The notes below the pieces were generated by a model, which was not told the DNA's origin, made no database searches, and saw nothing but the letters and a program-made list of their open reading frames with translations. From positions 1 through 64,000 of the forward strand of contig JAIQEX010000020.1 in NCBI GenBank assembly GCA_020073615.1: DNA of 64,000 bases, given 5' to 3'. Origin of the DNA: Terriglobia bacterium (lineage in GTDB: Bacteria > Acidobacteriota > Terriglobia > Bryobacterales > Bryobacteraceae). Positions 11,025 through 28,943 of this stretch are shown here, piece after piece; positions within the stretch are counted from its first letter, which is position 1; the number at the start of each line of letters is the position of its first letter. The position numbers were made by a program, and so were the translations under genes.

Positions 11025-11408
11025 TTGCGCGGCTTCGCGGATTTCGCGAGGCCTTTTTTTATGGGCACAACGACACTGAAATCACAAGAGAAGTCCGAAG
11101 ATAAGGCTTCCAAGAAACCCCGGGAGAGGGCATCAAAACTGACGGCGAAGAAGGCTCCCAGACCTTGCCGGGAGTGCAGCCGCTGGAACGAGATCAAGCA
11201 GAGACTTCGTGTTACCGAAGTGCTAGAGGATTCCATCGAGAAGGTGAAGAAGAAGCTTACGTCGGAGGAGTTCAAGCCGACGGTAGCCGACTATTTGAAG
11301 CTCCTGCAGGTAGAGAAGGATCTGGAGCGCGAGTTCGAGGACGGGAGTCCGAAGGAGATCGAGGTCACATGGGTCGAACCGTTAGTGACGTCCGACCCAA
11401 GCGCGTAG
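11025..11408 (+). CDS. Putative small terminase-like / DNA-packaging protein
   Basis: Small basic/coiled-coil ORF overlapping terL; SD AGGAGA 4 nt before TTG at 11025; alternative ATG at 11061. Confidence 0.55.
   Translation: MRGFADFARPFFMGTTTLKSQEKSEDKASKKPRERASKLTAKKAPRPCRECSRWNEIKQRLRVTEVLEDSIEKVKKKLTSEEFKPTVADYLKLLQVEKDLEREFEDGSPKEIEVTWVEPLVTSDPSA
11031..11060 (+). terminator. Rho-independent terminator-like hairpin in leader of virion cassette
   Basis: GGCTTCGCG-GATTT-CGCGAGGCC followed by T7. Confidence 0.75.
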
Positions 11409-12676
11409 AGATAACTTACCGCCCGTTGCCTTCACAGAAGCGGTTTCATCAACTGGATGGCCGCTTCAAGGGCTTTTCAGGACCGATTGGAAGCGGCAAG
11501 AGCCAGGCGCTCTGCCAGGAGGCTATACGGCTAAGTTACCTGAATCCGGGACGGATGGGGCTGCTGGGCGCGCCAACGTACCCAATGCTGCGAGATGCCA
11601 CGCAAGCAACGCTGTTCGAGATTCTGGAGGGAAGCAGGATCGCGTACGACCACAGTAAGGCAGAGAACGTAGTAGTTATCAAAGACACCCGTTCACGAAT
11701 ACTGTTCAGGCCGGTGGATGAGTTTGAACGGCTGCGCGGGACTAACCTGGCATGGTTCGGGCTGGACGAGTTGACTTACACGCAGGAGGAGGCGTGGCTG
11801 CGGCTGGAGGGGCGGCTGCGCGATCCCAAAGCTACGCGGCTTTGCGGATTCGCGGTGTGGACGCCGAAGGGTTACGACTGGGTGTACCGGAGGTTCATCG
11901 CCGACAAGGTGGGGGGATACCAGACGGTGCTGGCGAGGCCGTTTGAGAACCGGTACCTGCTGGACCGCATACCGGATTTCTACGACCACCTGAAGGACAG
12001 TTACGACCAGAAGTTTTATGAGCAGGAAGCGCTGGGGTCGTATCTGAACATGACCGGCGGGACGGTGTACAGCACATTCTCGCGGGGCACACATATCACG
12101 GAGTTGAGCGTACTGCCGCATTTACCGCTGTTCTGGACGATGGATTTCAACGTGGATCCGATGAGCTCGCTGATTGTGCAGATGGCGTACGGGAAGGTGC
12201 GGGTGCTGGACGAGATCGTGCTGCGGAATGCCACCACGAACGAGGCGTGCGAGGAGTTTCTGAAGCGGTATCCGAAGCACGATGCGGGGGTGGTGGTATA
12301 CGGGGACGCTTCGGGATTCCACAACCAGACGACGGGGGCGTCGGATTACGAGATGGTGCGGGAATACTTTCAGATCCACTCGACGACGCCGGTGCAGTAC
12401 CGGGTACCGAAGTCGAATCCCAGCGTACGGGAGCGCATCAACCTGACCAATGCGAGGCTGCTTTCGGCGGCGGGGGAGGTTGGGCTGGCGGTGGACAAGA
12501 AGTGCAAGGAGCTGATCAAAGACTTCGAGCAGGTGGCCTATAAGGCCGAGACGAACCTGATCGACAAGGACCGGGACCGGCTGCGGACCCATCTGTCGGA
12601 TGCGCTGGGGTATCTGTTGTGGCAGGAGTGCCGGGCGCTTCCGGTGGTGGGGGAGAGGCCGCAGAGGTTGTTCTAG
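11369..12676 (+). CDS. terL: Terminase large subunit
   Basis: Walker A-like GPIGSGKS, Walker B-like LAWFGLDEL, nuclease-like FWTMDFNVDPMSS and GDASG. Confidence 0.9.
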   Translation: MGRTVSDVRPKRVEITYRPLPSQKRFHQLDGRFKGFSGPIGSGKSQALCQEAIRLSYLNPGRMGLLGAPTYPMLRDATQATLFEILEGSRIAYDHSKAENVVVIKDTRSRILFRPVDEFERLRGTNLAWFGLDELTYTQEEAWLRLEGRLRDPKATRLCGFAVWTPKGYDWVYRRFIADKVGGYQTVLARPFENRYLLDRIPDFYDHLKDSYDQKFYEQEALGSYLNMTGGTVYSTFSRGTHITELSVLPHLPLFWTMDFNVDPMSSLIVQMAYGKVRVLDEIVLRNATTNEACEEFLKRYPKHDAGVVVYGDASGFHNQTTGASDYEMVREYFQIHSTTPVQYRVPKSNPSVRERINLTNARLLSAAGEVGLAVDKKCKELIKDFEQVAYKAETNLIDKDRDRLRTHLSDALGYLLWQECRALPVVGERPQRLF

Positions 12677-12709
12677 GGAGCGACCGGGGGCGCGGAGGAG
12701 AAAACATTG

Positions 12710-12795
12710 TTCACCGCCGAGACGCAGAGACGCCGAGGAAAAGCAGGTAAGGCAAGTCACGCCCGTTCTCGGCGCCTCCGCCTCTCGGCGGTGAA
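12710..12795. repeat. Palindromic MITE/REP-like element
   Basis: 28-nt arms TTCACCGCCGAGACGCAGAGACGCCGAG / CTCGGCGCCTCCGCCTCTCGGCGGTGAA with 3 mismatches. Confidence 0.75.
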
Positions 12796-12866
12796 TAAAG
12801 AACGCTGAGGGCGCAGAGGAAGCAGAGAAGGCGGGCGGGGGAGCGAAGGGGACGACGGAATTGAGT

Positions 12867-14243
12867 ATGGAAAACATCAACCGGGAGCATCCGGAGTATG
12901 TCGCGCGCAAGGCGATGTGGAGACAGTACAAAGACCTGTACGCGGGCGGCGAACAGTTGCGGGCGAGTGCCGCGGAATACCTGGTGCGGAGACATAAGGA
13001 GCCGGGGGAGGTGTACCAGGAACGGCTGAACCGGGTGTTCTACCAGAACTACATCGGCTCGATCATCGACTGGTATTCGGCGACACTGATGCGGCGCGAG
13101 CCGGTGCTGCTGTTTGAGGGGAGCGACGCGGCGGCGAAGGGGTTCTACAACGTGCTGGGGGAGGACTGCGACCTGAAAGGGACGAATCTCAGCGAGTTTT
13201 TCCGGCAGCGGTTCGTGGAGATGGCGGTGTGCGGGAGCAGTTACATCGTGGTGGACTTTCCGCGTGGGGGAGGCGGGGACAGGCCGGCGCCGCTGACACG
13301 GGCGGAAGAGGACGCCTCGGGCAGATCGCGGGCGTACCTGGTGGATTACGGGCCGGACGAGGTCATCAACTGGAGCTACGACCAGACGGGCGGGCTGGAA
13401 TGGGCGGTGATCCGGACGTCGTGCCTGCAGCAGTCGAAGGTGACGGACGCGAAGTGGGAGAAGGAGACGCGATGGATTTACTACGATCGCGAAAACTTCC
13501 AGGTATTCCGGAAGAGGCGCGAGGAGAGCGCGATCGAGCTGGTGGACGAAGGGCGGCACGGCCTGGCGGCGCTACGGCGGGTGCCGATGTTTCAGATGAA
13601 GGTGAGCGAGGGGCTGTGGCTGATGAACAAGTCGGCGCTGCTGCAGATGGAGCACTTCAACAAATCGAATGCGCTTTCGTGGGCGCTGACGATGGGGCTG
13701 TTCGCGACCCCGGTCGTATATTCGGACCGCGAATGGAACCAGATTGTGGGCGAATCCTATTACATCCAACTGGGGCCCAACGATAAGTTCGGGTGGACGG
13801 AGCCGGAGGGAAAGGTCTACCAGATCGCGGCGGACAACCTGGTGCAGCTCAAGGACGAGATTTACCGGGTTTGCTACCTGATGAACCAGGCGGGGAGCTC
13901 GAGCGGACTGAACCAGTCGGGGCTGAGCAAGCAGATGGATTTCGCGACGACGCAGGAGGTACTGCGGGCGTACGGCGATGCGGTGAAGGAGAGCCTGAAG
14001 CAGGTGTTGTGGGCGATCGCGGCGGCGCGGCAGGACGGGGTATCGATCGACGTACAGGGGCTGGACGAGTTCGACATCAACGCGCTGGGCGGGGAGTTGG
14101 ACGATGCCAAGAAGCTGCTGGATCTGGGGATCGGGTCGGAGACGCTGAAGAAGCAGGTGTTCAAGAAGCTGGCGTTCAAGTACCTGTGCGACGCACGGCA
14201 GGAGATTAAGAACAGGGTGGCGGAAGAGATCGACGGGGGGTGA
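12867..14243 (+). CDS. Phage portal protein (DUF4055-like)
   Basis: Position after TerL; NYIGSIIDWYSATLMRREPVL and SSGLNQSGLSKQMDFATTQEVLRAYGDAVK regions typical of DUF4055 portals. Confidence 0.75.
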   Translation: MENINREHPEYVARKAMWRQYKDLYAGGEQLRASAAEYLVRRHKEPGEVYQERLNRVFYQNYIGSIIDWYSATLMRREPVLLFEGSDAAAKGFYNVLGEDCDLKGTNLSEFFRQRFVEMAVCGSSYIVVDFPRGGGGDRPAPLTRAEEDASGRSRAYLVDYGPDEVINWSYDQTGGLEWAVIRTSCLQQSKVTDAKWEKETRWIYYDRENFQVFRKRREESAIELVDEGRHGLAALRRVPMFQMKVSEGLWLMNKSALLQMEHFNKSNALSWALTMGLFATPVVYSDREWNQIVGESYYIQLGPNDKFGWTEPEGKVYQIAADNLVQLKDEIYRVCYLMNQAGSSSGLNQSGLSKQMDFATTQEVLRAYGDAVKESLKQVLWAIAAARQDGVSIDVQGLDEFDINALGGELDDAKKLLDLGIGSETLKKQVFKKLAFKYLCDARQEIKNRVAEEIDGG

Positions 14244-14250
14244 GAAGACA

Positions 14251-14372
14251 GGGGCCGGGGGCCAGGGGCCAGGGGCTGGGGGCCAGGGGCCAGGGGCCGG
14301 GGGCCGGGGGCCGGGGGAAGGTGGCCTTCGGCTGCTTTTTTTGGGCTCGCTGCGCTCGCGGGGGGCCGGGTG
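14251..14372 (+). repeat. G-rich heptamer tandem repeat (GGGGCCA/G)n plus TTGGGCTCGCTGCGCTCGCGGGG tail, copy A
   Basis: Directly read; begins just after portal stop codon. Confidence 0.85.
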
Positions 14373-14401
14373 GAATCAAGAGTAGGGAAGACAGGAGAGT
14401 T

Positions 14402-14953
14402 ATGGACGGAATCGACATTCAAGGGATCGTGCGGCAGGCGATCCAGGAGTTCGTGAACAACGAGCAGGCGAAGAATGAGCCGGCGCACAGGGCGGAACTG
14501 GTTGAAGAGCGCAAGCGGAGAGAGCAACTGGAGCGCCGGATGAACGAATTGGTGGCGGAGAACAAGCACAGCCGGCAGGTGGCGGCGGAAGCGGAACGAG
14601 GGTCGGCGGTGAGGGCGGAATTGCAGCGGCTGGGCGTGGCCAAGATCGACCTGGCGTTCAAGGCAGTACAGGACGGGATCGTGCGCACGGAGGATGGGCG
14701 GCTGGTGGCCAAGGGCGAGAGCGGGGAGATGCCGGTGAAGGAATATCTCACGGCGTTCGTCAACGAGAATCCGGAATTTTTGCCGGCGCGCATCGCGGGG
14801 GGGACCGGGATGACGGCGACCCTGAAGGCCCCGGCAACGGGACGGGAGACGGTGAGCATGGAACAGATCCGTCCGGGGATGAGCGCGGAAGAGATGCAGC
14901 GGGTACGAGAGGAAATCGTGCGCGTAGCGTCGCAGACCCTGAAGGGCCTGTAG
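14402..14953 (+). CDS. Putative capsid scaffold protein
   Basis: Charged coiled-coil protein between portal and capsid genes (EERKRREQLERRMNELVAENKH...). Confidence 0.6.
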   Translation: MDGIDIQGIVRQAIQEFVNNEQAKNEPAHRAELVEERKRREQLERRMNELVAENKHSRQVAAEAERGSAVRAELQRLGVAKIDLAFKAVQDGIVRTEDGRLVAKGESGEMPVKEYLTAFVNENPEFLPARIAGGTGMTATLKAPATGRETVSMEQIRPGMSAEEMQRVREEIVRVASQTLKGL

Positions 14954-15040
14954 AGAAGTACCGGCGCTAAGAGGGAACCGGCGGAAGGGCCGCCGGCGCT
15001 AGTGGCGGCGGCAAGAACAACCAAGAAAGAAGGAGAAAAG

Positions 15041-15952
15041 ATGGCAGCAATAACCTCAACAAACGTCGCTAACGCGATCGTGAAGCTGGTGGCGGCGGAC
15101 GCATTGCCGGTGCTGGTAGGAAACCTGGTGATGGGGAACCTGGTGAATCGGGATTACGAGCCGGTGCTGGCGCAGGCCGGCGACACGATAAACGTGCCGA
15201 TTCCGCCCGTGATGGTGGCCAACAACATCCTGGAAGGCGGGACGGTGCAGACGCAGAATCCGAGTCTGGGGAACGCGCAGATCGTGCTGAACACGCACGC
15301 GGAGGCGACGTTCCAGATTCCGGACGTGACCAAGGTGCTGGCGGTTCCGGATCTGTTGAAGATCTACATGCAACCGGCGGTGGCGGCGATCGCGCAGAGA
15401 GTGGAGAGCGATCTACTGAGTCTGTACGCGGGATTCACGGCGAACGCCGCGGTGGGAACGCCGGGGACGCCGATCACGGAAGCGACGATCGACGCGGCGG
15501 AAACGGCGCTGTTTCTGTCGAAGATTCCGCCGAGCGAGCAGAAGTTCATGGTGGTGGATGCGGCGACGTATTCGACGTGGCGGCAGATCCCGCGGTTCAG
15601 CGAATTCCAGACCGCGGGGGACGCGGGGCTACGGGCGATCGTGGACGGGACGGTGGGGAAGGTGAAAGACTTCTTCGTGTTCCGTTCGCAATTCGTGCCG
15701 AAGACGGGGAGCACCCCGGTAACGACGCACAACATTGCGTTCGCGAAGGACGGTCTGGGGCTGGTGATCCGGCGGCTGCCGCAACCGCTGCCGGGGACGG
15801 GCGCCATTGCGGAGTATGCCGAGCTGGGCAACTTCGGGATGCGCGTGGTGATGAGCTACCAGCCGAACACACTGGCCCAACAGTTCACGGTGGATATTCT
15901 GTACGGCTGCGGCGTGCTGCGGAATGCGTCGGGCGTGCAGGTGAATACGTAG
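15041..15952 (+). CDS. Major capsid protein (P22-coat/HK97-fold like)
   Basis: 303-aa structural protein with AGDTINVPIPP and GNFGMRVVMSYQPNTLAQQFTVDILYGCGVLR; strong SD aaggagaa. Confidence 0.75.
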   Translation: MAAITSTNVANAIVKLVAADALPVLVGNLVMGNLVNRDYEPVLAQAGDTINVPIPPVMVANNILEGGTVQTQNPSLGNAQIVLNTHAEATFQIPDVTKVLAVPDLLKIYMQPAVAAIAQRVESDLLSLYAGFTANAAVGTPGTPITEATIDAAETALFLSKIPPSEQKFMVVDAATYSTWRQIPRFSEFQTAGDAGLRAIVDGTVGKVKDFFVFRSQFVPKTGSTPVTTHNIAFAKDGLGLVIRRLPQPLPGTGAIAEYAELGNFGMRVVMSYQPNTLAQQFTVDILYGCGVLRNASGVQVNT

Positions 15953-16063
15953 GGGCCAGGGGCCAGGGGCCGGGGGCCGGGGGCCGGGGGAGTGTTGGGC
16001 CCTTCGGGCCCGGCTTCCTTTGGGCTCGCTGCGCTCGCGGGGTTGGGGGCCGGGCTTCCGGCG
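15952..16063 (+). repeat. G-rich heptamer tandem repeat plus TTTGGGCTCGCTGCGCTCGCGGGG tail, copy B
   Basis: Same composite as 14251-14372; starts within the capsid stop codon; contains GGGCCCTTCGGGCCC hairpin. Confidence 0.85.
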
Positions 16064-16092
16064 CCAAGAGCTCGGACATTTATAGCAGGGGC

Positions 16093-16186
16093 AATTCGGG
16101 GACAGGCAACGAAATTCCGCGGCGCGGGCTTTTTTTGTTTTCTTTTGGATTTCGTGGCGCGGAATTTCGAAGCCAGTCCCCGAATT
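16093..16186. repeat. Long inverted-repeat element (REP/RAYT-hairpin-like)
   Basis: 29-nt arms AATTCGGGGACAGGCAACGAAATTCCGCG / CGCGGAATTTCGAAGCCAGTCCCCGAATT with 3 mismatches. Confidence 0.75.
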
Positions 16187-16205
16187 GAGAAAGAGGAGGA
16201 CGAGG

Positions 16206-16532
16206 ATGGATTTGAAGCTGTATTACCAGAAGATTCGTGACGTGGAAGCGAAGATCGTGGAGGCGTTTCCGGTGGTGGTGAGCCGGGAGACGGGGGACGG
16301 CGGCAAGGAAGGAATGCTGACGGAGACGACGCGGGCGATCGCCGCGAAGATGATCGCGGATGGAGCGGCGCGGCTGGCGAAGCCGGAGGAAGTGAAGGCG
16401 TTTCAGGAAGGGCGGGCGGAGGCGGTGCGGCTGGTGGAAGAGGCGGCAGCCGCGGCGAAGGTGCAGTTCACCATGTTTCCGACGTCGGAACTGAGCAGGC
16501 TGAGAGGCGCATTGCGGCCAGCGAAGGATTAG
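16206..16532 (+). CDS. Small virion-cassette protein (unknown)
   Basis: 108-aa ORF with SD gaggag, collinear with cassette. Confidence 0.6.
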   Translation: MDLKLYYQKIRDVEAKIVEAFPVVVSRETGDGGKEGMLTETTRAIAAKMIADGAARLAKPEEVKAFQEGRAEAVRLVEEAAAAAKVQFTMFPTSELSRLRGALRPAKD

Positions 16533-16540
16533 GCGGGGTC

Positions 16541-17302
16541 ATGGCTCTTTTCACAGACGGAGCGATATCGGGCATAGAAGATCTTACGGCGCAGGACTCG
16601 CAACTACTGAATGTGGCGAGCACGGAGGGGATCGACGTGACGCAGAAGCTGGCGGCGGCGCAAGAGGAGATCGGGCTGGAGATGCACACGCTGCTGACGA
16701 GGCTGAGCGGCATGGACCAACAGTTCTGGCTGGCCGCGCAACCGGACCTGGAGAGCGTGGTGGTGACGCCGGCACTGAGGCTGTGGCACACGTTCCGAGC
16801 TTTGGAGTTGGTGTACAGCGATGCGTACAACAGCCAGTTGAACGACCGGTACGCGGGGAAGCGGGACCAGTTCCACAAGATGGCGAAGTGGGCGTACGAG
16901 AAGCTGGTGGAGACGGGGATCGGGCTGGCATGGCTGCCGGTGGCGCGGGCGGCGACCCCGGTGGTGGCGGCGGCGCCGGGCAGCGTGCCGGACGGGACGT
17001 ACTACGTGAGCATGACGTGGACGAACCGCAACGGCGAAGAAGGGGCGGCGGCGATACCGGCGGCGATCACGGTTGCGGGGAGCACCTTCCTGGTGCAGCC
17101 CGGGGAAGCGCCGCGGAACGCGACCGGATGGAACGTGTACGTGGGCGAGGATCCGGGGGCGATGTCGCTGAAGAGCGAGGCGCCGATGGCACCGGAAGAG
17201 AGCTGGCAGGCGGGCGAATGGAAGACGGGAGGCCGGGCGCCAGGCTGCGGGCAATCGCCGAGCTACATGAAACCGGTGCCGCGGGTGATCCAGAGGGGCT
17301 GA
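16541..17302 (+). CDS. Putative head-tail connector/adaptor with C-terminal Fn3/Ig-like domain
   Basis: N-terminal helical part; C-terminal GTYYVSMTWTNRNGEEGAAAIPAAITV...NATGWNVYVGEDPG beta-domain. Confidence 0.55.
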   Translation: MALFTDGAISGIEDLTAQDSQLLNVASTEGIDVTQKLAAAQEEIGLEMHTLLTRLSGMDQQFWLAAQPDLESVVVTPALRLWHTFRALELVYSDAYNSQLNDRYAGKRDQFHKMAKWAYEKLVETGIGLAWLPVARAATPVVAAAPGSVPDGTYYVSMTWTNRNGEEGAAAIPAAITVAGSTFLVQPGEAPRNATGWNVYVGEDPGAMSLKSEAPMAPEESWQAGEWKTGGRAPGCGQSPSYMKPVPRVIQRG

Positions 17303-17799
17303 TGACGAAAAAGATCGGGAGCGCAATCACGGCCAAGGTCATTCAACGGATTACGGGTCCGGGGGGAGTGAACGCGGGACTGGGGGCACTGGAGCTGCCG
17401 GGGCAGGCGGCGGGCGGGCTGGATGCGGGCCAGGTGCGGTCGCAGAACGTGGCGGCGGACGTGGCGGAGCGCAGCGGGACGGCGCAGTATCCGGCGGCGA
17501 ACGTGTACTGCGAAAAGATCGTGAACAGCCTGGAGGAAAAGTTCCGCACGTTTTCGGGAAGCGTGCAAATGGCGATTGAGGTGCGGCATTCGCAGGACCG
17601 TCTGGAGGGCCTGGAAGACGCCGTGGAGCTATACGCGGACGCGGTGATGCAGGTGCTGAACGCGGGGCGGGGCGATTGGGGCGACGGCATGTTTTACGGC
17701 GGTGAATACCAGGTGTCGTTTGGGGCCGTGAAGCACGGGGGGAAGAACTTCATCCAGGCGGCCAAAATCACATTCGAGATTGGAGTGAGCAGGAACTAG
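17302..17799 (+). CDS. Putative tail completion/terminator protein
   Basis: TGATG overlap with previous gene; FSGSVQMAIEVRHSQDRLEGLEDAVELYADAVMQVL; position before tail tube. Confidence 0.5.
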   Translation: MTKKIGSAITAKVIQRITGPGGVNAGLGALELPGQAAGGLDAGQVRSQNVAADVAERSGTAQYPAANVYCEKIVNSLEEKFRTFSGSVQMAIEVRHSQDRLEGLEDAVELYADAVMQVLNAGRGDWGDGMFYGGEYQVSFGAVKHGGKNFIQAAKITFEIGVSRN

Positions 17800-17800
17800 T

Positions 17801-18973
17801 ATGTCCTCATATATTTCCTCAAACGCAAACCGGTTTTACACGGCGCTGGAGAGCGGGTACGGGAAGGTGCCGGCGATCGGATCGAGCGCAAGGATTCCGG
17901 CCGTGAAACTGACGGTGCGGCAGCAGCAGGAGGCCGCGGAGCGGAAAGACAAGACGGGCAGCCGGACGTTCGCGGGACGGCCGGCGGGAGGCCGGCGGCG
18001 GACGAACTTCGAGCTGAAGACGTACCTGACGACGTGGCAGAAGACGGCGGCGGGTCCGGGATACGGGCCGCTGTTTCAGGCGGCGCTGGGCGGGGCGCCA
18101 CAGTCCTTTGCGGGCGGGGCGGGATCGAGCACGGGCGCCGGGCGGGTCACCTTTGGAGCGGCGCACGGACTGAGCGCGGGACAGGCGGTGGCGTGCGGAG
18201 GGGAAGTGCGGTTTGTGGGAGCGATTGTGGACACGCACACGGTGCAGTTGAATGCGCCGTTTACGGCCGTGGGGAACGTGACCTTGGGGGCGGCGGTGAC
18301 GTACGCTCCGGCGACCGAGCTGGGGAGTGTGAGCGTATTCGACTACTGGAGCCCGGCGACGGCGGTGCAGCGGTTATTGTGCGGCGCGGCGGTGGACCAG
18401 ATGGAGATTGCGGTGAACGGGGACTACCACGAGTTTCAGTTCAGCGGCCTGGCACAGGATGTGCTGGACAGCAGCAGCTTCTCCGGCGGCCAGGCGGCGC
18501 AGCTTCAGAGCTTTCCATTGGAGCCGGCGGTGGACGCGTTCGATTATACGATCGTGCCGGGGAACATGGGGCAGGCGTGGCTGGGGACGTCGCCGACGCA
18601 GTTTTTCACGATCACCTCGGCGACCATCGCGCTGAAGAACGAACTGGACACGCGCTCGCGGGAGTTCGGATCGAACGTGCCGCGGGCGATATCGCCGGGG
18701 CAGCGGTCGGTTACGGCGGCCTTCGAACTGTTCAGCCTGGACGACGACGCGACGAAGGGACTGTACCAGGCGGCGCGGCAACAGTCGCCGATCAGCGTGA
18801 TGCTGCAGTTGTACGTGACGTGGGGGCTGCGGGGGGTTTCGGGGCTCCATGTGGACGGGGCTGAGGCGACGCCCGAGACGCTGGCCGAGGCGGGGCCGGA
18901 AGATCTGTTCCGGGAAGCGCTGGCGGCGGTGCGGGCGGAGACGGGGCTGAGCGGCGAAGAACGAAAAAACTGA
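17801..18973 (+). CDS. Major tail tube-like protein; 0-frame product ending at slippery site
   Basis: 390-aa structural ORF located between tail completion and tape-measure-like genes. Confidence 0.6.
   Translation: MSSYISSNANRFYTALESGYGKVPAIGSSARIPAVKLTVRQQQEAAERKDKTGSRTFAGRPAGGRRRTNFELKTYLTTWQKTAAGPGYGPLFQAALGGAPQSFAGGAGSSTGAGRVTFGAAHGLSAGQAVACGGEVRFVGAIVDTHTVQLNAPFTAVGNVTLGAAVTYAPATELGSVSVFDYWSPATAVQRLLCGAAVDQMEIAVNGDYHEFQFSGLAQDVLDSSSFSGGQAAQLQSFPLEPAVDAFDYTIVPGNMGQAWLGTSPTQFFTITSATIALKNELDTRSREFGSNVPRAISPGQRSVTAAFELFSLDDDATKGLYQAARQQSPISVMLQLYVTWGLRGVSGLHVDGAEATPETLAEAGPEDLFREALAAVRAETGLSGEERKN
18964..18970 (+). promoter_or_regulatory. Predicted programmed -1 ribosomal frameshift site A_AAA_AAC
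   Basis: cgA AAA AAC TGA in tail-tube frame; -1 frame is open from here to 19320; hairpin starts 5 nt downstream. Confidence 0.75.
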
Positions 18974-19320
18974 TAGTCGCCTTCCACTTTCAATTTTCCA
19001 ACCAGGCCGGTTGGAAGTGCGACGTTTGCCGGAAGTCCGGTCTGGAGAAAAAGCGGCGCTGCGGGTGGCTGGCGGGGTTCGAGGATGGGGAGGGACCTCC
19101 GGTGTGGGCAAGGAAGCACGTCGCGCTGACGACTTGTCCGAAATCGTATATCACAGCGGAGAGCGAGTCGCTGGTGGAGGAGTTTTTCGTGAGGCGGCGG
19201 CTGGGTGGGTTCGATATCGAGGGGCTGAGCGCGCGGCAGGTGGAAGCATTCGTGATTCTGGAGAGGGCGCTGGCAGCAGAGAGGAACGATGGGCAGCACG
19301 ACACAAGACAAGCTCTTTGA
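18970..19320 (+). CDS. -1 frame extension / tail-assembly-chaperone-like protein (Cys-rich, no good start codon)
   Basis: Open frame LIVAFHFQFSNQAGWKCDVCRKSGLEKKRRCGWLAGFEDGEGPPVWARKHVALTTCPKSYITAESESLVEEFFVRRRLGG...; only in-frame non-CTG start is GTG 19102, after the Cys motif. Confidence 0.65.
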   Translation: MIVAFHFQFSNQAGWKCDVCRKSGLEKKRRCGWLAGFEDGEGPPVWARKHVALTTCPKSYITAESESLVEEFFVRRRLGGFDIEGLSARQVEAFVILERALAAERNDGQHDTRQAL

Positions 19321-19942
19321 GAATTTCACGGAGGCCTCGGGCGGAGCGACGCAAGGGGCAGATTCGCTGGGCAGCCTGACCGACGAACTGGCAAGTGCGC
19401 TGACGGCGGCGACGCACGCGGCGAGCGCGGCACCGCAGGCCAGGCAGAGCACGAGCGGAACGGCGAGTACGAGCGGAACGGCGAGCACGAGCGGGAGCAG
19501 CGCGGGGAGCAAGGTATTGTCGATCGCGGAGACGGTGCTGGAGAGCGGCTTGGGGCTGGTGCCGCTGATTGGCGGGTTGTTGGGCCTGTTTGGCGGAGGG
19601 GGGCAGGCGGCGCCGCCTCCGCTGGTGAAGTACGCGATGCCGGAGAAGCAGTCCTTCGAGGGCGCGGATACGGGCAGCGGGATGAGCGACGCGGATTACG
19701 ACCAGATGGGGATGGCGCGGGCATACAGCGGCCCGCCGGATGGAGCGAGCGCGGCGCCGGCGAGCGCGGCCGTCTCCACGGGCGGCGGGGCGGCGGCGAG
19801 TGCCGGGGGGCCGCAGATCCACGTGAATGTGCAGACCATGGATGCGCAATCGTTTTTGGACCACAGCAACGAGATCGCGCAGGCGGTGCGGCAGGCGATG
19901 TTGAATTCCAGCTCGATCAACGACGTGGTGAACGACCTCTGA
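19289..19942 (+). CDS. Very short tape-measure-like protein
   Basis: Gly/Ala-rich with hydrophobic GLGLVPLIGGLLGLFGGGG and C-terminal VNVQTMDAQSFLDHSNEIAQAVRQAMLNSSSINDVVNDL typical of tape-measure C-termini. Confidence 0.6.
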   Translation: MGSTTQDKLFENFTEASGGATQGADSLGSLTDELASALTAATHAASAAPQARQSTSGTASTSGTASTSGSSAGSKVLSIAETVLESGLGLVPLIGGLLGLFGGGGQAAPPPLVKYAMPEKQSFEGADTGSGMSDADYDQMGMARAYSGPPDGASAAPASAAVSTGGGAAASAGGPQIHVNVQTMDAQSFLDHSNEIAQAVRQAMLNSSSINDVVNDL

Positions 19943-19943
19943 C

Positions 19944-20303
19944 ATGGCGACCTTTCCGAAGCTAAAGACGAGCGCGGTGGCGCAGTATCCGGCAACGAAG
20001 TCGGTGCGGTTTCAAAACCAGACCTTACGGTTCGTGGACGGCGCGGAGCAGCGCTACCGGGACTCGGCGGGACCGCTGCACCAATGGGAAATCCGGCTGG
20101 AGGAGCTGGACGAGAGCGAGATGGCGGCGATCGAGGAGTTCTTTGCGGCGAACCAAGGGCGGCTCGGGAGCTTCGCGTTCACCGATCCCTGGGACGGCCA
20201 TGCCTACGCAAATTGCAGCCTGGCGAGCGACGAACTGACGCTGCGCGCACTGGCGGAGATGCGGGGTAAGACGTCGCTGATTGTGAGCGAGAACCGGGGA
20301 TAG
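19944..20303 (+). CDS. Distal tail-like protein (DUF2460-like)
   Basis: LEELDESEMAAIEEFFAANQGRLGSFAFTDPWDGHAYANC. Confidence 0.55.
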   Translation: MATFPKLKTSAVAQYPATKSVRFQNQTLRFVDGAEQRYRDSAGPLHQWEIRLEELDESEMAAIEEFFAANQGRLGSFAFTDPWDGHAYANCSLASDELTLRALAEMRGKTSLIVSENRG

Positions 20304-20306
20304 GAC

Positions 20307-21089
20307 ATGCTGGTATACCCACAACTAGCGACCGGGGCGTTGAGCCAGTTTCCGGTCGAGAAGCGGCGGCGCCTGCGCACGGTGGTGAACGCCGCGGCGG
20401 ACGGGAGGTCGATCAGACTGGCGGACCCGGCGGCGGAAGCGACGGAATGGCAGTTGCAATACGCGGGGCTGAGCGACGCGGAGCTAGCGGCATTGCAGCA
20501 GTTCTTCCTGGCCGCGGAGGGCTCGCTGAACGGCTTCACGTTTTTGGATCCGGCGGGCAACCTGTTCGCGTGGAGCGACCACCTGGACAACGCGGTGTGG
20601 GCGCGGGGGCCGTTCCTCGCGGTTTCGGGAGAGGTGGCGGACCCGATGGGCGGGAGCAACGCGTGGCACACGGTGAATTCCGGCGGGGGCGCGCAGAGCA
20701 TTACACAGACGCTGGGCGCGCCGGGTGGATACACGTATTGTCTCAGCGCATACGCCAGAGCGTCACAACCGGCGGTGGCGACTTTGCTGCGCGGCACGGA
20801 TCGCGCGGACCGGCAGGTGGGGACGGAGTGGAAGCGGATTGCGTTCGCGGGAACGGGCGATGCGAAGGCGGCATCGCTGGTGTTTGGCCTGGAGGCGCCG
20901 GCGGGGGCGGCACTCGATATTTTCGGACTGCAAGTAGAGCCGCAGGCCGGAGCATCCGGTTACAAAGCGGCGACCAGCGGCGGCGTGTACGAGAACGCGC
21001 GGTTTGGCGACGATACTTTTCGCTTTACCACGACAGCGCCGGATTGCCATTCGGCCACGGTGAATATTTTCCATGCAAGCCATCTCTGA
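20307..21089 (+). CDS. Distal tail-like domain fused to lectin/CBM-like domain
   Basis: YAGLSDAELAALQQFFLAAEGSLNGFTFLDPAGN parallels previous gene; C-terminal GGYTYCLSAYARA...LDIFGLQVEPQAGASGYKA. Confidence 0.5.
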   Translation: MLVYPQLATGALSQFPVEKRRRLRTVVNAAADGRSIRLADPAAEATEWQLQYAGLSDAELAALQQFFLAAEGSLNGFTFLDPAGNLFAWSDHLDNAVWARGPFLAVSGEVADPMGGSNAWHTVNSGGGAQSITQTLGAPGGYTYCLSAYARASQPAVATLLRGTDRADRQVGTEWKRIAFAGTGDAKAASLVFGLEAPAGAALDIFGLQVEPQAGASGYKAATSGGVYENARFGDDTFRFTTTAPDCHSATVNIFHASHL

Positions 21090-24000
21090 TCTGAAGGAAC
21101 AGGCGGTCACGGACACGCCGCTGCTGGTGTTCGATTGCCTGCTGCCGAACGGGCAGACGGAGCACTGGAGCACGCACCGGGTGACGGTGCCGGGGAAGAC
21201 GTACGAAGCCCGCGTGATGCAGCACAGCGCGTTCGACATACAGACGGCATCGGACCAGGGAATCGACGGGAGCCCGCGAATTTCGGTGGTGCTAGCCAAT
21301 GCGGACTCGCACTTTTCGGAAATCGCGCGAGAGATCGGATGGAAGGGCGCGCGGCTGACGGCGGGGTTCCTGTTTTACGATTTGCGGAACGACGTACCGC
21401 TGACGGATGTGGCGGTGGTATTTCAAGGGACCTGCAACCCGCCGGACGAGATCAAGGAATCGACGTTTCGCGTGACGGCGATCAACCGGATGAACCTGCA
21501 ACGGCTGCTGCTGCCGCAGGTACGGATTCAGCGGCGGTGCCCGTGGGAATTCCCCGCGACGGAAGATCAGAGGACGGAAGCGGTGGACGGCGGAGTGCAC
21601 GGGAAGTATTCGCGGTATTACCGCTGCGGATATTCGGCGGGGGTGAGCGGCGGCACGGGATTGCTGAATGGCGGCGGTCCGTTCACGTCGTGCGGGTACA
21701 CCAGAAGCGACTGCCAGGCGCGGGGGATGCTGAACCGGTTCGGCGGGCTGGAGTTCATTCCGCCGGCGATCGCGGTGCGCAGCTATGGAAAAGACTGGTC
21801 GACATCGGCCGTGGCGGTGAACCAGGCGAGGTACAACGACTTTGTTCCGATGGTGTACGGGACGGCGTGGTACGCGCCGACGGTGGTGTTCGCGCGCAAT
21901 GACGGCAACCTGACGCGGATGGAAGTGCTGCTGGGGATCGGCGAGATGCAGGGCGTGCTGACCGTGCTGGTGAACGACGTGGAGATTCCGATGGGGGTCT
22001 CGGGCACGAACATGACGGGCACGGGTTGGTACAACGTGATGACGCTGGGGACGCGCGACGGCAACTTCGACAACAACTTTCTGGACGCGAGCGGAAAGCC
22101 CGTGGGGGACCCCTACGGCAGCATGGCGTACCTGTCGGTAGTGGTTCCGAACCGGCTGAACAGCGGCACTTCGGCGCCCAGCGTGAAGGTGCTGGCACAG
22201 GGGCTGAAGGTGCCGGTTTACGCGGCGGACGGGACATACCTGGGCGAACAGTTCTCGAGCAATCCGGCGTGGATCCTGCAGGACGTGCTACGGCGGAGCG
22301 GGTGGGAATCGGCGGAGATCGATACCACCAGCTTCGCTGTGGCGGCGGCATACTGCGACGAAGCGATCCAGGCGAAGGACCTGAACGGAAACGCGATTGA
22401 GCTTTCGCGTTTTCAGTGCAACGTGGTGCTGCAAAGCCGGCGCAGCGCCGGGGACCTGGTGCGGGGGATCCGCAACACGGCGCGGCTATTCCTGACGTAC
22501 GGGCCGGGGGGGGCGCTGCAATTGGGCGTGGAGAACACGGCGGCGCTGGAACAGCCAAGCAAGGCGGCGGGGTCGAACAGCAAGGAATCCTTGGACGGGG
22601 GCTGGCCGAGCTACGAATTCGGCGATGGGAGCAACGGCTACTCGGGGATTCTACGGCGGCAGAATGGCGAGCCGAGCATCACGCTGACATCGCGCGGCAT
22701 CGCGGACACGCCGAACCGGCTGACGGTGGAGTTTCAAGATGCGCTGAACGGGTATCAGCAGGACAGTTACTCGATGGTGGACGCAGACGACGTGGCGCTG
22801 GCGGGCCAGGAAGTGTCCAAGACGCTCGCGGCGCTGGGGCTGCCGAACTACGACCAAGCCGCGCGGATTCTGAAATTCAACCTCGACAAAACAGTTCGCG
22901 GAAACACCTATATCGCGTTCGACACGAGCGTGAAAGCCTTTGGCATCCGGCCGGGCGACTTGATTACGGTGACGTACCTAAAGGAAGGCTTCAACCGGCA
23001 GCCGTTTCGCGTGCTGAAGATTTCGCCGGCAACGAACTACCGGACATCCACCATCACGGCGCAGATTCACGACGATGCGTGGTACGCGGACACGAACGGG
23101 CAGACGACGTCGGGCACGGGCGCGGCACAGCAAGGCGGCACCGGGATTGGCGTACCGAAGCCGCTGATGGGCAGCGTGGTGGACGACGACGGGGAGATTG
23201 AGTTCGGGGTGGAGGAGACCTCGGAGGCGAGCGGCGATGGAACGGCGGAAGCGAGCGTGTCGGTGAGTTTCATTCCGCCTGCGATGGCCACGGCGGCAGG
23301 GCCGGGAATCCCACTGATCAGCCTGATCACGAACGTGGGAGCGGGCGGCACGCTGAAGAGCGGCGAGACGCTGTACTACGCGGTGTCGGGGAGCGATGGG
23401 GCGGGGAACGAGAGCGGCCTCTCGTTCATCGTGAGGGCGGTGATTGCGAGCGATGGGAGCGCGGTGACGCTCTCGGGGCTGAGCTTTGCGGCGGGAACGA
23501 GCGCGTTTCAGGTGTATCGCGGGACGACGCCGGCGCAGTTGTTCCGCATTGCTTCGGACCAGGCGGTGGCCAGCGAGTTTACCGATACGGGCCTGGCGAA
23601 GCAGTTGATCGCCCCGCCGGATGCGAGTTTCGATCACGCGAATTTCTATTGGCGGATGGAATTGCAGCCGGAAAGCGGAGTGACGGCACACGCGGCGACA
23701 ATGGTGGGCAACGGGGCGCTGGAGATGACGGCCAACGAATACCGCGGAATGACGGTGCGGATTACACGCGGCAACGGCGCAGGGCAAGAGCGGACGATCG
23801 CGGCGAACGACGCAACGAGCCTGACGATTGCGCCGCCATGGGTGGTGGAGCCCGATGCGGGGAGCTCTTTTGCGGTGGCGGAATCGGGGTGGCACTTCGG
23901 GGCGCTGACGAAGAGCAGCCCGGTGCAGTTTGCGATTCCGAACCGGCCGGGAGAGGTAGTGCAGATTTCGGGCCGCGCGGCCAACGTGAACGACGTGGAA

Positions 24001-24954
24001 TGCTCGCCGGAGCTTTCGACGGTGACGCGGTGGCAGATTGGCGGGGCGGGCGGCGGGGATGCGGACGTTCCGGCGCAACCGTCATTCGGCCTGGGGGCGG
24101 GGCAGAGCGGCGGAACGGTCGAGTTGAGCGGCATCTCGTTTACGGACCTGACGAACACGCGATCGGTTACGTCGGCCACTTTGACGCTGCACTACTGGGA
24201 CGAACTACAGGGAACACCGGCGATCGGTCTGGCGAATGCGATGGGGGCGGGCGACCTATCGCTGAGCCTGAATGCGGCCGGGCCGGGAGCAGTTGGGAGC
24301 ATTCTCCAGATTGAACGCGAGATTCTGCGGGTGGAGGAAGTGACCGACAACGGCACCGGATACCGGGTAACGCGTGGCGTTCATGGCAGCCAGACGGCCG
24401 CGCACGCGGCACAGACGCCGGTCTATCATCTGGCGAGTAAGACGGTCATAACGCCCTTTCCCCAAGAGTTCTTTGGCAGCGCGTACAGCGGAAGTTGGGG
24501 TTATTCCATCCTTCTGCCGGATGTAAGAGTCGGCAGCGCCGAACTGTTCGTTACGAATTCGAAAGGGAACAGCACGGCGGGAAGCATCTTTCTGACACAC
24601 AACGACGACAGCGGGCTGCGGACGCTCTCGGGCGGGCAGTACTCGATCCAGGTGGACGGATATCTGGCGGTGGATCAATCGGTGGCGCCGGCTTTGGTGG
24701 TGGAATCGTCACACGCGGTGCGGGACGTGTTCGCCATTCTCGGGACGGCAGCGGATGCGCCGGTGCAACTAGAGCTGAAGGCCGATGGCGCGCCGTACTG
24801 CACGTTGAGCTTCGCGGCGGGGATGATTGTTTCAAACAGCGTGAGCGGCACGACGCTGGCGCCGCTCACATCGGGGGCGAAGGTGACTTTGTCGGTAGTG
24901 TCGGTGGGCCAGACCTATCCGGGCGCGGACCTCACCGTACTGATCCGACTGTGA
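21073..24954 (+). CDS. Tail hub/tip protein with lambda gpL/GTA gp13-like Cys motif and Phage-tail_3-like region
   Basis: 1293 aa; RRCPWEF...RCGYSAGVSG...TSCGYTRSDCQARG cysteine pattern; FGIRPGDLITVTYLKEGFNRQPFRVLKISPATNYRTSTITAQIHDDAWY. Confidence 0.7.
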   Translation: MQAISDLKEQAVTDTPLLVFDCLLPNGQTEHWSTHRVTVPGKTYEARVMQHSAFDIQTASDQGIDGSPRISVVLANADSHFSEIAREIGWKGARLTAGFLFYDLRNDVPLTDVAVVFQGTCNPPDEIKESTFRVTAINRMNLQRLLLPQVRIQRRCPWEFPATEDQRTEAVDGGVHGKYSRYYRCGYSAGVSGGTGLLNGGGPFTSCGYTRSDCQARGMLNRFGGLEFIPPAIAVRSYGKDWSTSAVAVNQARYNDFVPMVYGTAWYAPTVVFARNDGNLTRMEVLLGIGEMQGVLTVLVNDVEIPMGVSGTNMTGTGWYNVMTLGTRDGNFDNNFLDASGKPVGDPYGSMAYLSVVVPNRLNSGTSAPSVKVLAQGLKVPVYAADGTYLGEQFSSNPAWILQDVLRRSGWESAEIDTTSFAVAAAYCDEAIQAKDLNGNAIELSRFQCNVVLQSRRSAGDLVRGIRNTARLFLTYGPGGALQLGVENTAALEQPSKAAGSNSKESLDGGWPSYEFGDGSNGYSGILRRQNGEPSITLTSRGIADTPNRLTVEFQDALNGYQQDSYSMVDADDVALAGQEVSKTLAALGLPNYDQAARILKFNLDKTVRGNTYIAFDTSVKAFGIRPGDLITVTYLKEGFNRQPFRVLKISPATNYRTSTITAQIHDDAWYADTNGQTTSGTGAAQQGGTGIGVPKPLMGSVVDDDGEIEFGVEETSEASGDGTAEASVSVSFIPPAMATAAGPGIPLISLITNVGAGGTLKSGETLYYAVSGSDGAGNESGLSFIVRAVIASDGSAVTLSGLSFAAGTSAFQVYRGTTPAQLFRIASDQAVASEFTDTGLAKQLIAPPDASFDHANFYWRMELQPESGVTAHAATMVGNGALEMTANEYRGMTVRITRGNGAGQERTIAANDATSLTIAPPWVVEPDAGSSFAVAESGWHFGALTKSSPVQFAIPNRPGEVVQISGRAANVNDVECSPELSTVTRWQIGGAGGGDADVPAQPSFGLGAGQSGGTVELSGISFTDLTNTRSVTSATLTLHYWDELQGTPAIGLANAMGAGDLSLSLNAAGPGAVGSILQIEREILRVEEVTDNGTGYRVTRGVHGSQTAAHAAQTPVYHLASKTVITPFPQEFFGSAYSGSWGYSILLPDVRVGSAELFVTNSKGNSTAGSIFLTHNDDSGLRTLSGGQYSIQVDGYLAVDQSVAPALVVESSHAVRDVFAILGTAADAPVQLELKADGAPYCTLSFAAGMIVSNSVSGTTLAPLTSGAKVTLSVVSVGQTYPGADLTVLIRL

Positions 24955-27650
24955 TGGAACAGCTTACTAAGTTGCGGCCGGACCGCGACCTGCAATGTTA
25001 CTTTCACCGGCCTTCGTCGGCAGCGGCTCTGAGCGAAGCCAGCGCGAGCGGCTTTACGGTGTCGGGATGCTGGCGCCAGCAGTTCGACTGGGCAGTAGTG
25101 GAGTGGAACCGGGACAATGTCTTCGAGCATCCCGCTCTGCGCAACCTGCCCGACGGCGACTTGAGCAGCCTGCATCTCACCTACGAGGAAGCGCGCAGCA
25201 ACTGCGTAGGTCTCGATTCCAATCTTTACCCGACAGTGGAATGGCCGTATCTCAGGATTTGGGCCGATTCGAACGGGGTCGAGGCGCTTTACGAAGTGCC
25301 GCTCAAGAATCACGCGACGGCGACGGGCGGCAGCTACACGGCAGCAACGGCGGAATTCGAACTGGAAGGCACGCCGGCGGCGGGGGATTACATCGAGCTG
25401 GCCTGGCTGGATCAACATTTCAATTACCGGGTCGGGGCGGGCGACACATTGGAAAGCGCTGCCGGCGCGCTGGCGGCCATTATCACGGCCAACCAGGCCG
25501 CCGGCGGAGTCAGCGCATCGGCGGACGGGGCGCGGATTGTGCTGACATACCTCGGGGCGCCGGGCTCGAATGGAAACCGGATCGGCGTGTATGGGACCGT
25601 ACATGGCGTGGCGACCGAGAACTGGGCACCCTGGTGGAACACTTTCAGCGGCGGAACATCGCCCGACCGATGGCGAGTGGATCTGGATTTCAGCAACCTG
25701 CGGGACGTGAATGGGACGCAGGTTCCGACCTCGAGCGTTCGGAAGATGCGATGGACCTGGGCCGCCGATTTACAGACGGGGGACTTCGCGCGTAGCGAGT
25801 TCGCGGTTGTGGTTACGAACTGGACGGTCACGGGGACGAACCTGCTGTACGAGGTGGCGGGTCCGGGCAGCAGGCGGATTGAAGACGATGCGCCGGATGT
25901 CTCGTATGCGGGAGCGTGGACGGAAGAGCGTGGCAATTATTCGGGCGGATCAATCCGCTGGACTGCGACGCCGGGGGCGCAATTGCGCTGCACCTACACG
26001 GCGGGAGCGGCGCATACTTTGTACCTGGGAACACGGCGCGCGGATGCGGGCGGGCGGATCACGGTGCAGGTGGATGCGAATCCGTCGGAGACGGTGGATT
26101 TGAAGCTGAGCGGCGAAGACGTACTGGTGCGAGTTCCATTGGGACAGTTGACGGCACAAAGCCATGCCGTCACGATCACGCACAGCGGCAGCCCGGGATC
26201 GTACTTTTACTTTGACTTCATCGAGGTTGCGATACCGACTAATGTTGTGCCGTCATTCGGCGCGGTGGCGACGACTACGCTGGCTACCGATTGGGACACG
26301 GACCACTCCATTGCGATCGCTCCGCAGAGGACGGCATGGCTGCTCCAGACACTCGGCTTTCATGGCCGAGCCAACCATTACGCGGGGGCGCTGTGGTTTT
26401 ACGAGCTGTGCCGGCCCGGCCAGCAATACGCGGCAGGAACGGTCACGTTCGCGGGTGCCCCGGAATTCGGGAAGACGACGCAGGTTGTCGTGGGGCAATC
26501 CCCAATGACCCATGTAAACCTGATCGGCGACACGGCAGAGAGCGTGGCGAAATGTTTCGAGTTGCTGATCAACGCCGGATCGACCGGCGTGTGGGCAAGA
26601 GTGGAGGGCGCGACGCTCACGATCACGGCGCGCGCCATGGGGACCGAGGGCAACGGCACTGGTCTTTCGGCGAGCACCGGCAGCACGGGGTTCAGCGCCA
26701 TGGCAAGCGGCCCCGTGCTTGCGGGCGGCGTGGACGGGCGGTGGCAGACAGATCTGACTGCCGTGCCGCGCATGAACCGCGCGGCGCGCGACTGGAGTCG
26801 CAGCTATTTTCGGGCGTTGAAGGGCTACGGAATCGGCGTGGCGGCGGGGTTCAGCATGGAATTGCAGCACGGGGACGACAGCGTGGCGGCGGGGATCGCC
26901 CAGAGGTATCCGAATGGCGACGCGGCATGGCTGAATACTCCGGCATTGCAGACGAATTTCGGACCGGCCACCACAGCGTTCTGGAAGCAGGCCTATGCGG
27001 ACATGGCGGGGGTGATGGCGGACGCGGCGGTGCCGCCGTATCTGCAATTCGGCGAGGTGCAGTGGTGGTACTTCGCGGCTGCGTCGGGGATGCCGTTTTA
27101 CGATGCGTACACGACGAGCTCGTTCCAAGCGGCATACGGGCGGCCGATGACGGTCATCACGAGCCAGAACGCGGATCCCGGTCCGCTGGCGCAGGAGTGC
27201 GCGTTGTTGCCGAAGCTCATCGGCGAATTCACGGATGCGATCGCGGATTTCGTGCGGCAGACGTATCCCGACGCACGTTTTGAGGTGCTGTATCCGCCGG
27301 ACGTGAACGACACGCCGCTCAACAAGATCATCAATTTTCCAGCATCCTATTGGACACCGGCGAACCTGGCTTGCCTGAAGACGGAGAACTTTACCTACAC
27401 GGGCGACCGGAACCTGGACAAAGCGCGCGAGTCCATTGTGTTGCCGATGCGTAACGGGTTTCCGCCCTCACAGGCGAGCCACCTGGTAGGGATTGGCGAA
27501 TACACTACGCCGTGGCAGAAGGAACAACGGCTGGCACTCGGCGCGGGAGTGGAATCGATCGTTTTGTTTGCACTGGACCAGTTTTGTTTGATCGGTTACG
27601 ACTTGCCGCTGGATCGCGGTGCCCGCCGGGCCCTATTCATGGGCCGGTAG
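24954..27650 (+). CDS. Large tail-tip protein with TIM-barrel/glycoside-hydrolase-like C-terminal region
   Basis: 898 aa, TGATG overlap with hub gene; PPYLQFGEVQWWYFAA...SHLVGIGEYTTPWQKEQRLALGAGVESIVLFALDQFCLIGYDLPL resembles barrel strands. Confidence 0.6.
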   Translation: MEQLTKLRPDRDLQCYFHRPSSAAALSEASASGFTVSGCWRQQFDWAVVEWNRDNVFEHPALRNLPDGDLSSLHLTYEEARSNCVGLDSNLYPTVEWPYLRIWADSNGVEALYEVPLKNHATATGGSYTAATAEFELEGTPAAGDYIELAWLDQHFNYRVGAGDTLESAAGALAAIITANQAAGGVSASADGARIVLTYLGAPGSNGNRIGVYGTVHGVATENWAPWWNTFSGGTSPDRWRVDLDFSNLRDVNGTQVPTSSVRKMRWTWAADLQTGDFARSEFAVVVTNWTVTGTNLLYEVAGPGSRRIEDDAPDVSYAGAWTEERGNYSGGSIRWTATPGAQLRCTYTAGAAHTLYLGTRRADAGGRITVQVDANPSETVDLKLSGEDVLVRVPLGQLTAQSHAVTITHSGSPGSYFYFDFIEVAIPTNVVPSFGAVATTTLATDWDTDHSIAIAPQRTAWLLQTLGFHGRANHYAGALWFYELCRPGQQYAAGTVTFAGAPEFGKTTQVVVGQSPMTHVNLIGDTAESVAKCFELLINAGSTGVWARVEGATLTITARAMGTEGNGTGLSASTGSTGFSAMASGPVLAGGVDGRWQTDLTAVPRMNRAARDWSRSYFRALKGYGIGVAAGFSMELQHGDDSVAAGIAQRYPNGDAAWLNTPALQTNFGPATTAFWKQAYADMAGVMADAAVPPYLQFGEVQWWYFAAASGMPFYDAYTTSSFQAAYGRPMTVITSQNADPGPLAQECALLPKLIGEFTDAIADFVRQTYPDARFEVLYPPDVNDTPLNKIINFPASYWTPANLACLKTENFTYTGDRNLDKARESIVLPMRNGFPPSQASHLVGIGEYTTPWQKEQRLALGAGVESIVLFALDQFCLIGYDLPLDRGARRALFMGR

Positions 27651-28901: not shown

Positions 28902-28943
28902 GGAAATAGAACTTCAGTATGCCAGAGCCGGGAGGGGGCCGCG

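Follow-up and report, generated by a model that had tools for sequence, protein, structure and literature searches.

Gene transfer agents (GTAs) are domesticated virus particles that carry random pieces of host DNA from cell to cell. Their genetic basis is known for few lineages, mostly in the Alphaproteobacteria, and the open-access literature searched yielded no report of one in the Acidobacteriota. The stretch of DNA analysed here is a window of 64,000 nucleotides, positions 1 to 64,000 of contig JAIQEX010000020.1 from a Terriglobia bacterium of the family Bryobacteraceae (Acidobacteriota). On its + strand, from 11061 (alternative start 11025) to 27650, it contains a cassette, a single run of genes for DNA packaging, head, connector, tail and tip. 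The whole is best explained by a single ancient domestication of a phage, followed by vertical inheritance of its virion operon and use as a GTA, an explanation given a probability of roughly 0.7. That the cassette is a vertically inherited domesticated particle is nearly certain, and it probably works as a GTA.

One known agent for comparison is RcGTA (Rhodogtaviriformidae) of the Alphaproteobacteria, whose structures have been deposited in the PDB. It has a tape measure of ~220 amino acids (aa) and tip modules of the DUF2460 and Phage-tail_3 types, as does the cassette. Both are single virion operons of similar length and order that are inherited vertically and have no autonomy genes in the cluster. 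Like that of RcGTA (PMC6854486), the small terminase (TerS) of the cassette is predicted to have no DNA-binding domain. The cassette differs from RcGTA in its P22-coat-like capsid, its separate TIM-barrel tip protein and its acidobacterial host. None of the RcGTA chains matched the profiles of the cassette portal, capsid, large terminase (TerL) or tail tube, the PDB profile searches listing other phages. The cassette thus appears to lie outside the RcGTA lineage and to have an independent origin, the resemblance being one of plan and TerS design. An initial sequence-only reading of the window had proposed a domesticated, GTA-like particle with a likeness to RcGTA. The domestication is borne out by synteny, congruence with the host tree, low dN/dS (the ratio of nonsynonymous to synonymous substitution rates), the lack of a nearby integrase or att site and the lack of a matching cultivated phage. 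The likeness to RcGTA holds for plan and TerS design, but does not extend to any detectable homology of portal, capsid, TerL or tube.

BaGTA from Bartonella and BhGTA from Brachyspira are, like the cassette, independently domesticated phage particles that co-diversify with their hosts (PMC9662315); BaGTA was here set beside the cassette by description, not by sequence. The BhGTA cluster contains an endolysin gene and displays no synteny within the genus (PMC9662315), while the cassette lacks a lysis gene and its synteny is rigid. FpGTA from Faecalibacterium is a recently proposed GTA operon outside the Alphaproteobacteria and is found in all genomes of the genus that were examined (PMC12946183). 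It is podovirus-like, 10.5 kb long and supported by packaged-DNA reads (PMC12946183), whereas the cassette is siphovirus-like and known from its genes alone.

Distribution, vertical inheritance and selection

The portal gene is found in 170 of the 201 genomes of the host family, representing 71 of 76 genera and usually in single copy, and the cassette is thus not confined to one strain. Full-length portal identities range from 54 to 83% among the matches listed. At least five further genomes encode the tip protein without a portal match; one of these is the sole additional genome sampled from the window's genus, with a tip protein that is 91% identical. Within the same order, the capsid gene is present in both sampled genomes of a second family and in one of 18 from a third. 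Outside these families, two genomes of the class encode a TerL at 53-55% identity, while searches for the portal elsewhere in the phylum were essentially negative. The named public carriers are Bryobacterales, Candidatus Solibacter, Candidatus Sulfopaludibacter and similar metagenome-assembled genomes (MAGs).

At 28 loci from many genera the genes are found in the order terS-terL-portal-scaffold-capsid-orf6-orf7-orf8-tube-chaperone-tape measure-DUF2460-DUF2460-tip1, and tip2 is recognisable at many of them; the same order of 14-15 genes is kept across the family. Protein lengths in the relatives are nearly constant (capsid 303 aa, TerL about 434, tube about 390 and tip1 about 1300). Lambda G/GT is a tail chaperone made via a frameshift layout. 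In the relatives, the gap between tube and tape measure contains a gene of ~122 aa ending in ...ERKN, followed by a -1 frame entered from A AAA AAC, and by analogy this layout would be that of a lambda G/GT-type tail chaperone. The slippery site and the downstream frame are kept in all 36 loci checked. The genes upstream of the cassette are common to the genomes of the window's clade, as is the O-antigen ligase gene downstream where the contig reaches it, and in the wider family the location of the cassette varies. In 18 carrier genomes none of the Phage_integrase matches listed, which leave out the weakest, lies within 15 kb of a cassette, the closest of them being 19 kb away.

Congruence with the hosts was assessed by comparing a concatenate of seven cassette proteins with rpoB in 29 genomes. 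The distances are correlated (Mantel r 0.60, a value as high being obtained in 0 of 5000 permutations), and the two trees have 12 of 26 splits in common, with a maximum of three when labels were shuffled. The common splits include deep ones as well as the grouping of three genomes from outside the family. When it comes to TerL, all cassettes form one clade apart from the phages (support 98). All genes tested are under purifying selection across the relatives. Where dS was usable, dN/dS stays well under 1 for almost all genes and pairs: 0.01-0.13 for the capsid, mostly 0.05-0.20 for TerL and 0.09-0.30 for the tip. The top value, 0.83, is from the tape measure in one distant pair near saturation.

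Several observations weigh against an inherited and functioning GTA. The cassette is missing from about 10-15% of the family genomes, the genomes are mostly MAGs, and the species tree is that of one marker. Lysis or regulatory genes for the cassette were not identified, and particle production, packaging and transfer are predicted from the genes. Some copies are also damaged. In the window, 17801-18973 encodes tube residues 1 to ~337 joined in frame to the last ~56 residues of the chaperone, the junction lying within 18780-18830, and this deletion is unique to this genome among those compared. Since ~0.37 kb has been lost, the tube and chaperone genes are separate in genome G001 of the same genus, and the window's genome has no second chaperone copy, the window's copy is either damaged or misassembled. 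The close relatives G020 and G086 have frame breaks, with lesions in tip or capsid genes, and in G060 (contig 138, about 17801-29612) a ~12-kb insertion splits tip2. With the window deletion and lesions in these three close relatives, some cassette copies may be dead or misassembled. In G118 (L095:9800-12369) TerS and a TerL stub are fused in frame to tip2 and the usual downstream neighbours are kept, making this an in-place deletion scar.

Fused tube and chaperone genes, a TerL kept only to about residue 59 in G118, and the absence from some relatives would all fit an old, functionless prophage remnant in slow decay. This is nevertheless a very improbable explanation and strongly disfavoured for the family, since dN/dS is far below 1 for nearly all usable genes and pairs, lengths and frameshift site are conserved across divergent genera, and the cassette has been retained vertically in nearly all genera. 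The intact reading frames that had been put forward against decay are found in the family, but not throughout the window's own copy, owing to the tube/chaperone fusion.

Related phages, capsid exchange and virus databases

No cultivated phage is close to the cassette; the best portal match is 26.9% identical over the full length, and capsid matches do not exceed 27%. True prophage relatives are found in two host genomes, on contig 156 of G041 (L091/L092) and on contig 1 of G099 (L074/L075), the latter with an integrase about 20 kb away, and further phage relatives are present in IMG/VR (L387-L398). These phages have the same ancestral gene order, and compared with the window their identities are 29-35% for the portal, 52-78% for the capsid and up to 48% for TerL.

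The cassettes and the related phages differ when it comes to the small terminase. The cassette TerS proteins are 75-147 aa long. Their basic N-terminus varies and is followed by a helix hairpin and an EIxVxWVEP tail, and hairpin and tail are conserved in 14 loci. No helix-turn-helix (HTH) was found in them by Pfam or PHROGs. An AlphaFold model of the window's TerS, of modest confidence (predicted local distance difference test, pLDDT, 75), has a disordered N-terminus and two helices, and a fold search with it gave no match, the two-helix hairpin being too small to place. Four of five TerS candidates from the sister phages match phage TerS families, two of them with HTH matches. The cassette TerS is therefore predicted to have lost a DNA-binding domain that the related phages keep. 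The same domain loss was described for the RcGTA TerS by Sherlock and colleagues, and was proposed to be a GTA-type trait that enables non-specific packaging (PMC6854486). The tape measure is 153-271 aa long in the cassettes versus 999 and 1145 aa in two related prophages.

In the capsid tree several phage capsids (G041, G099, L389, L396 and L398) are nested within the cassette clade, and several of these adjoin cassettes from the same or a close host genus, while TerL is not nested. The capsid of the G041 prophage has its closest counterparts in cassettes from the same genus (84% and 81%), while those of L389 and L398 are nearest to G007 (85%). A single clade of cassette capsids was rejected by the approximately unbiased (AU) test (p 0.00018). 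Because TerL gives one cassette clade, this conflict is read as capsid exchange, and the trees indicate that the capsid has been exchanged repeatedly between the domesticated element and resident phages. Given the agreement of the cassettes with the host tree, transfer out of the cassette into phages would be the simpler reading, although the long phage branches call for caution.

Scans of IMG/VR gave at least 581 and at least 589 stretches encoding the cassette's portal or capsid. The short layout is shared by all 54 fetched contigs on which capsid, DUF2460 and tip genes occur together, none of the 54 has a host-integrase match, and ~17 fetched contigs carry a host gene that lies upstream of the cassette in the window's clade. 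Because of this layout, the lack of integrase matches and the host flank genes, these entries (including L254-L386) are most plausibly chromosomal cassettes that have been catalogued as viruses. One entry of 16,365 bp, IMGVR_UViG_639633060, which we take to be Solibacter, appears to come from an isolate record. In an earlier survey, the prophages predicted for Solibacter and Bryobacter were tallied and regarded as probably active (PMC5900883).

The hundreds of IMG/VR contigs carrying the cassette, and the prophages of the same ancestral plan in two hosts, might also suggest a functional temperate phage or satellite that spreads horizontally with its other genes scattered. However, the database copies follow the short plan and lack integrase matches, several with host flank genes, the cassette tree tracks the host tree, and the true relatives are different, with a distant portal, a long tape measure and a DNA-binding TerS. 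This alternative is the least probable of those considered, slightly below decay.

Gene content of the cassette

The genes of the cassette are listed in Table 1. It is flanked by host genes, encoding a PMT_2 mannosyltransferase upstream and an O-antigen ligase on the opposite strand downstream.

Table 1. Features of the virion cassette, with window coordinates and the basis for each assignment.
Feature	Coordinates	Strand	Basis
Small terminase (TerS), 115 aa	11061..11408, alternative start 11025	+	Precedes TerL; hairpin model; no DNA-binding domain
Large terminase (TerL), 435 aa	11369..12676	+	PF03237 2.8e-7; phrog_2 5e-33
Portal, 458 aa	12867..14243	+	phrog_145 2.4e-49; PDB portal 8ts6 2.7e-20
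Probable scaffold, 183 aa	14402..14953	+	Sits before the capsid, likewise in relatives
Major capsid, P22-coat-like, 303 aa	15041..15952	+	PF11651 1.9e-12; phrog_283 3.8e-39; 303 aa in nearly all relatives
Small head/connector protein (orf6), 108 aa	16206..16532	+	Place conserved among relatives
Head-closure-like connector, 253 aa	16541..17302	+	phrog_8040 7.9e-6
Probable tail terminator, 165 aa	17302..17799	+	Position; 156-168 aa across cassettes
Tail tube (residues 1 to ~337) and tail-chaperone C-terminus, in-frame fusion	17801..18973	+	phrog_290 2.1e-10; alignment with relatives
Slippery heptamer A AAA AAC before TGA, programmed -1 frameshift site	18964..18970	+	36/36 loci
-1 frame extension, tail assembly chaperone (gpGT-type)	18970..19320	+	Lacks a start codon close to its 5' end in this genome
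Short tape-measure-like protein, 217 aa	19289..19942	+	phrog_3779 C-terminus 0.0021; TMP_C 0.05
DUF2460 distal tail protein, 119 aa	19944..20303	+	PF09343 8.5e-12
DUF2460 distal tail protein with C-terminal extension, 260 aa	20307..21089	+	PF09343 8.2e-8
Tail hub/tip (tip1), J-like, 1293 aa	21073..24954	+	PF13550 2.3e-8; phrog_31 5.6e-24
Tail-tip protein (tip2), TIM barrel and carbohydrate-binding-like modules, 898 aa	24954..27650	+	PF23845 9.4e-17

The sequence-only reading had described one same-strand virion run between host genes, and the profile searches name most of these genes and the flanks; its description stands, except that the chaperone frame and the slippery site had been overlooked. 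Its observation that integrase and att-like repeats are lacking also agrees with the searches. No Phage_integrase match is found on the window's contig, the matches in the genome all being on other contigs, and no direct repeats of ≥12 bp join the two cassette borders. Neither Pfam nor PHROGs gave a name for the scaffold or orf6, the terminator candidate matched at most a weak unknown family, and the tail-tube profile matched nothing in the PDB. Phage early, lysogeny or lysis genes are not recognisable in 11061-27650. The cluster contains no functions for autonomous integration or replication, with the qualification that replication and repressor genes were not profile-searched in every genome. 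With a G+C content of 63.8%, against 64.1% and 64.4% in the flanks, the cassette does not differ in composition from the host.

Three other kinds of element were considered and rejected: a functional temperate prophage, as there is no recognisable integrase, att site, lysogeny or lysis gene with the virion genes; a capsid-forming phage-inducible chromosomal island (cf-PICI) satellite, which would have an integrase and take its tails from a helper, as no integrase is near the cassette and it has its own complete tail genes; and a tailocin, which would be a tail lacking head and packaging genes, as TerL, portal and capsid are present.

The intergenic gaps at 14240-14350, 15955-16010 and 12690-12860 contain GC-rich short repeats (GGCCGGGGGCC units) and ACGCCGAGACGC-like units, which are possibly small mobile repeats.

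Proposed packaging and delivery, and significance

Among the features expected of a GTA, the cassette displays a tailed-phage virion origin, vertical transmission, selection across relatives, no autonomy genes in the cluster and a predicted loss of the TerS domain. GTA activity is considered the best explanation because the packaging genes have been kept and TerS has changed. In the proposed mechanism a siphovirus-like ancestor would have been domesticated in a single event that preceded the radiation of this acidobacterial order, and reduced to a virion operon of ~16.6 kb that is inherited vertically on the chromosome. The cell would produce short-tailed particles, and a TerS without a sequence-recognition domain would let TerL load host DNA non-specifically into the capsid. 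The particles might then exit through lysis functions encoded elsewhere, and the TIM-barrel/carbohydrate-binding tip may engage the polysaccharide coat of kin cells and deliver the DNA. The AlphaFold model of tip2 has a pLDDT of 89, and its nearest folds in a fold search are a phage N4 tail protein, GH26/PgaB-type hydrolases and a xylan-binding module, which suggests that tip2 contacts polysaccharide. ComEC is present in the window's genome, but this says little about transfer since most bacteria have it.

The same anatomy, with its well conserved tip, would also serve a domesticated and selected particle with another task, either a PBSX-like DNA-filled killer or interference with related phages. 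A capsid-level effect on phages is conceivable, as these hosts also harbour related phages that have capsid genes in common with the cassette. Tail-only killers, on the other hand, do not need a terminase and a capsid under purifying selection, the loss of the TerS domain is a GTA-type signature, and PADLOC gave no defence match for TerL, capsid or tip. Such a service is regarded as unlikely, though less so than decay or a mobile phage.

CsCl-purified peat viromes were found to contain much non-viral bacterial DNA, which the authors ascribed to possible GTAs (PMC6172770), and some of the Bryobacterales MAGs that carry the cassette derive from peat habitats. If the cassette works as a GTA, it would be a candidate source for this non-viral DNA. 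The wider picture has about an even chance of being correct: an independent GTA as old as the order, at work across the family in soils, whose capsid gene has repeatedly been swapped with those of its hosts' phages and which is one source of the bacterial DNA recovered in viromes from peat and soil. On the reading of the database entries given above, many IMG/VR 'viruses' are host chromosome. A family-wide GTA in a very common group of soil bacteria would add an independent domestication to those described, with recurrence of two features, the loss of sequence recognition in TerS and the short tape measure, and it would make gene transfer in soil testable in culture.

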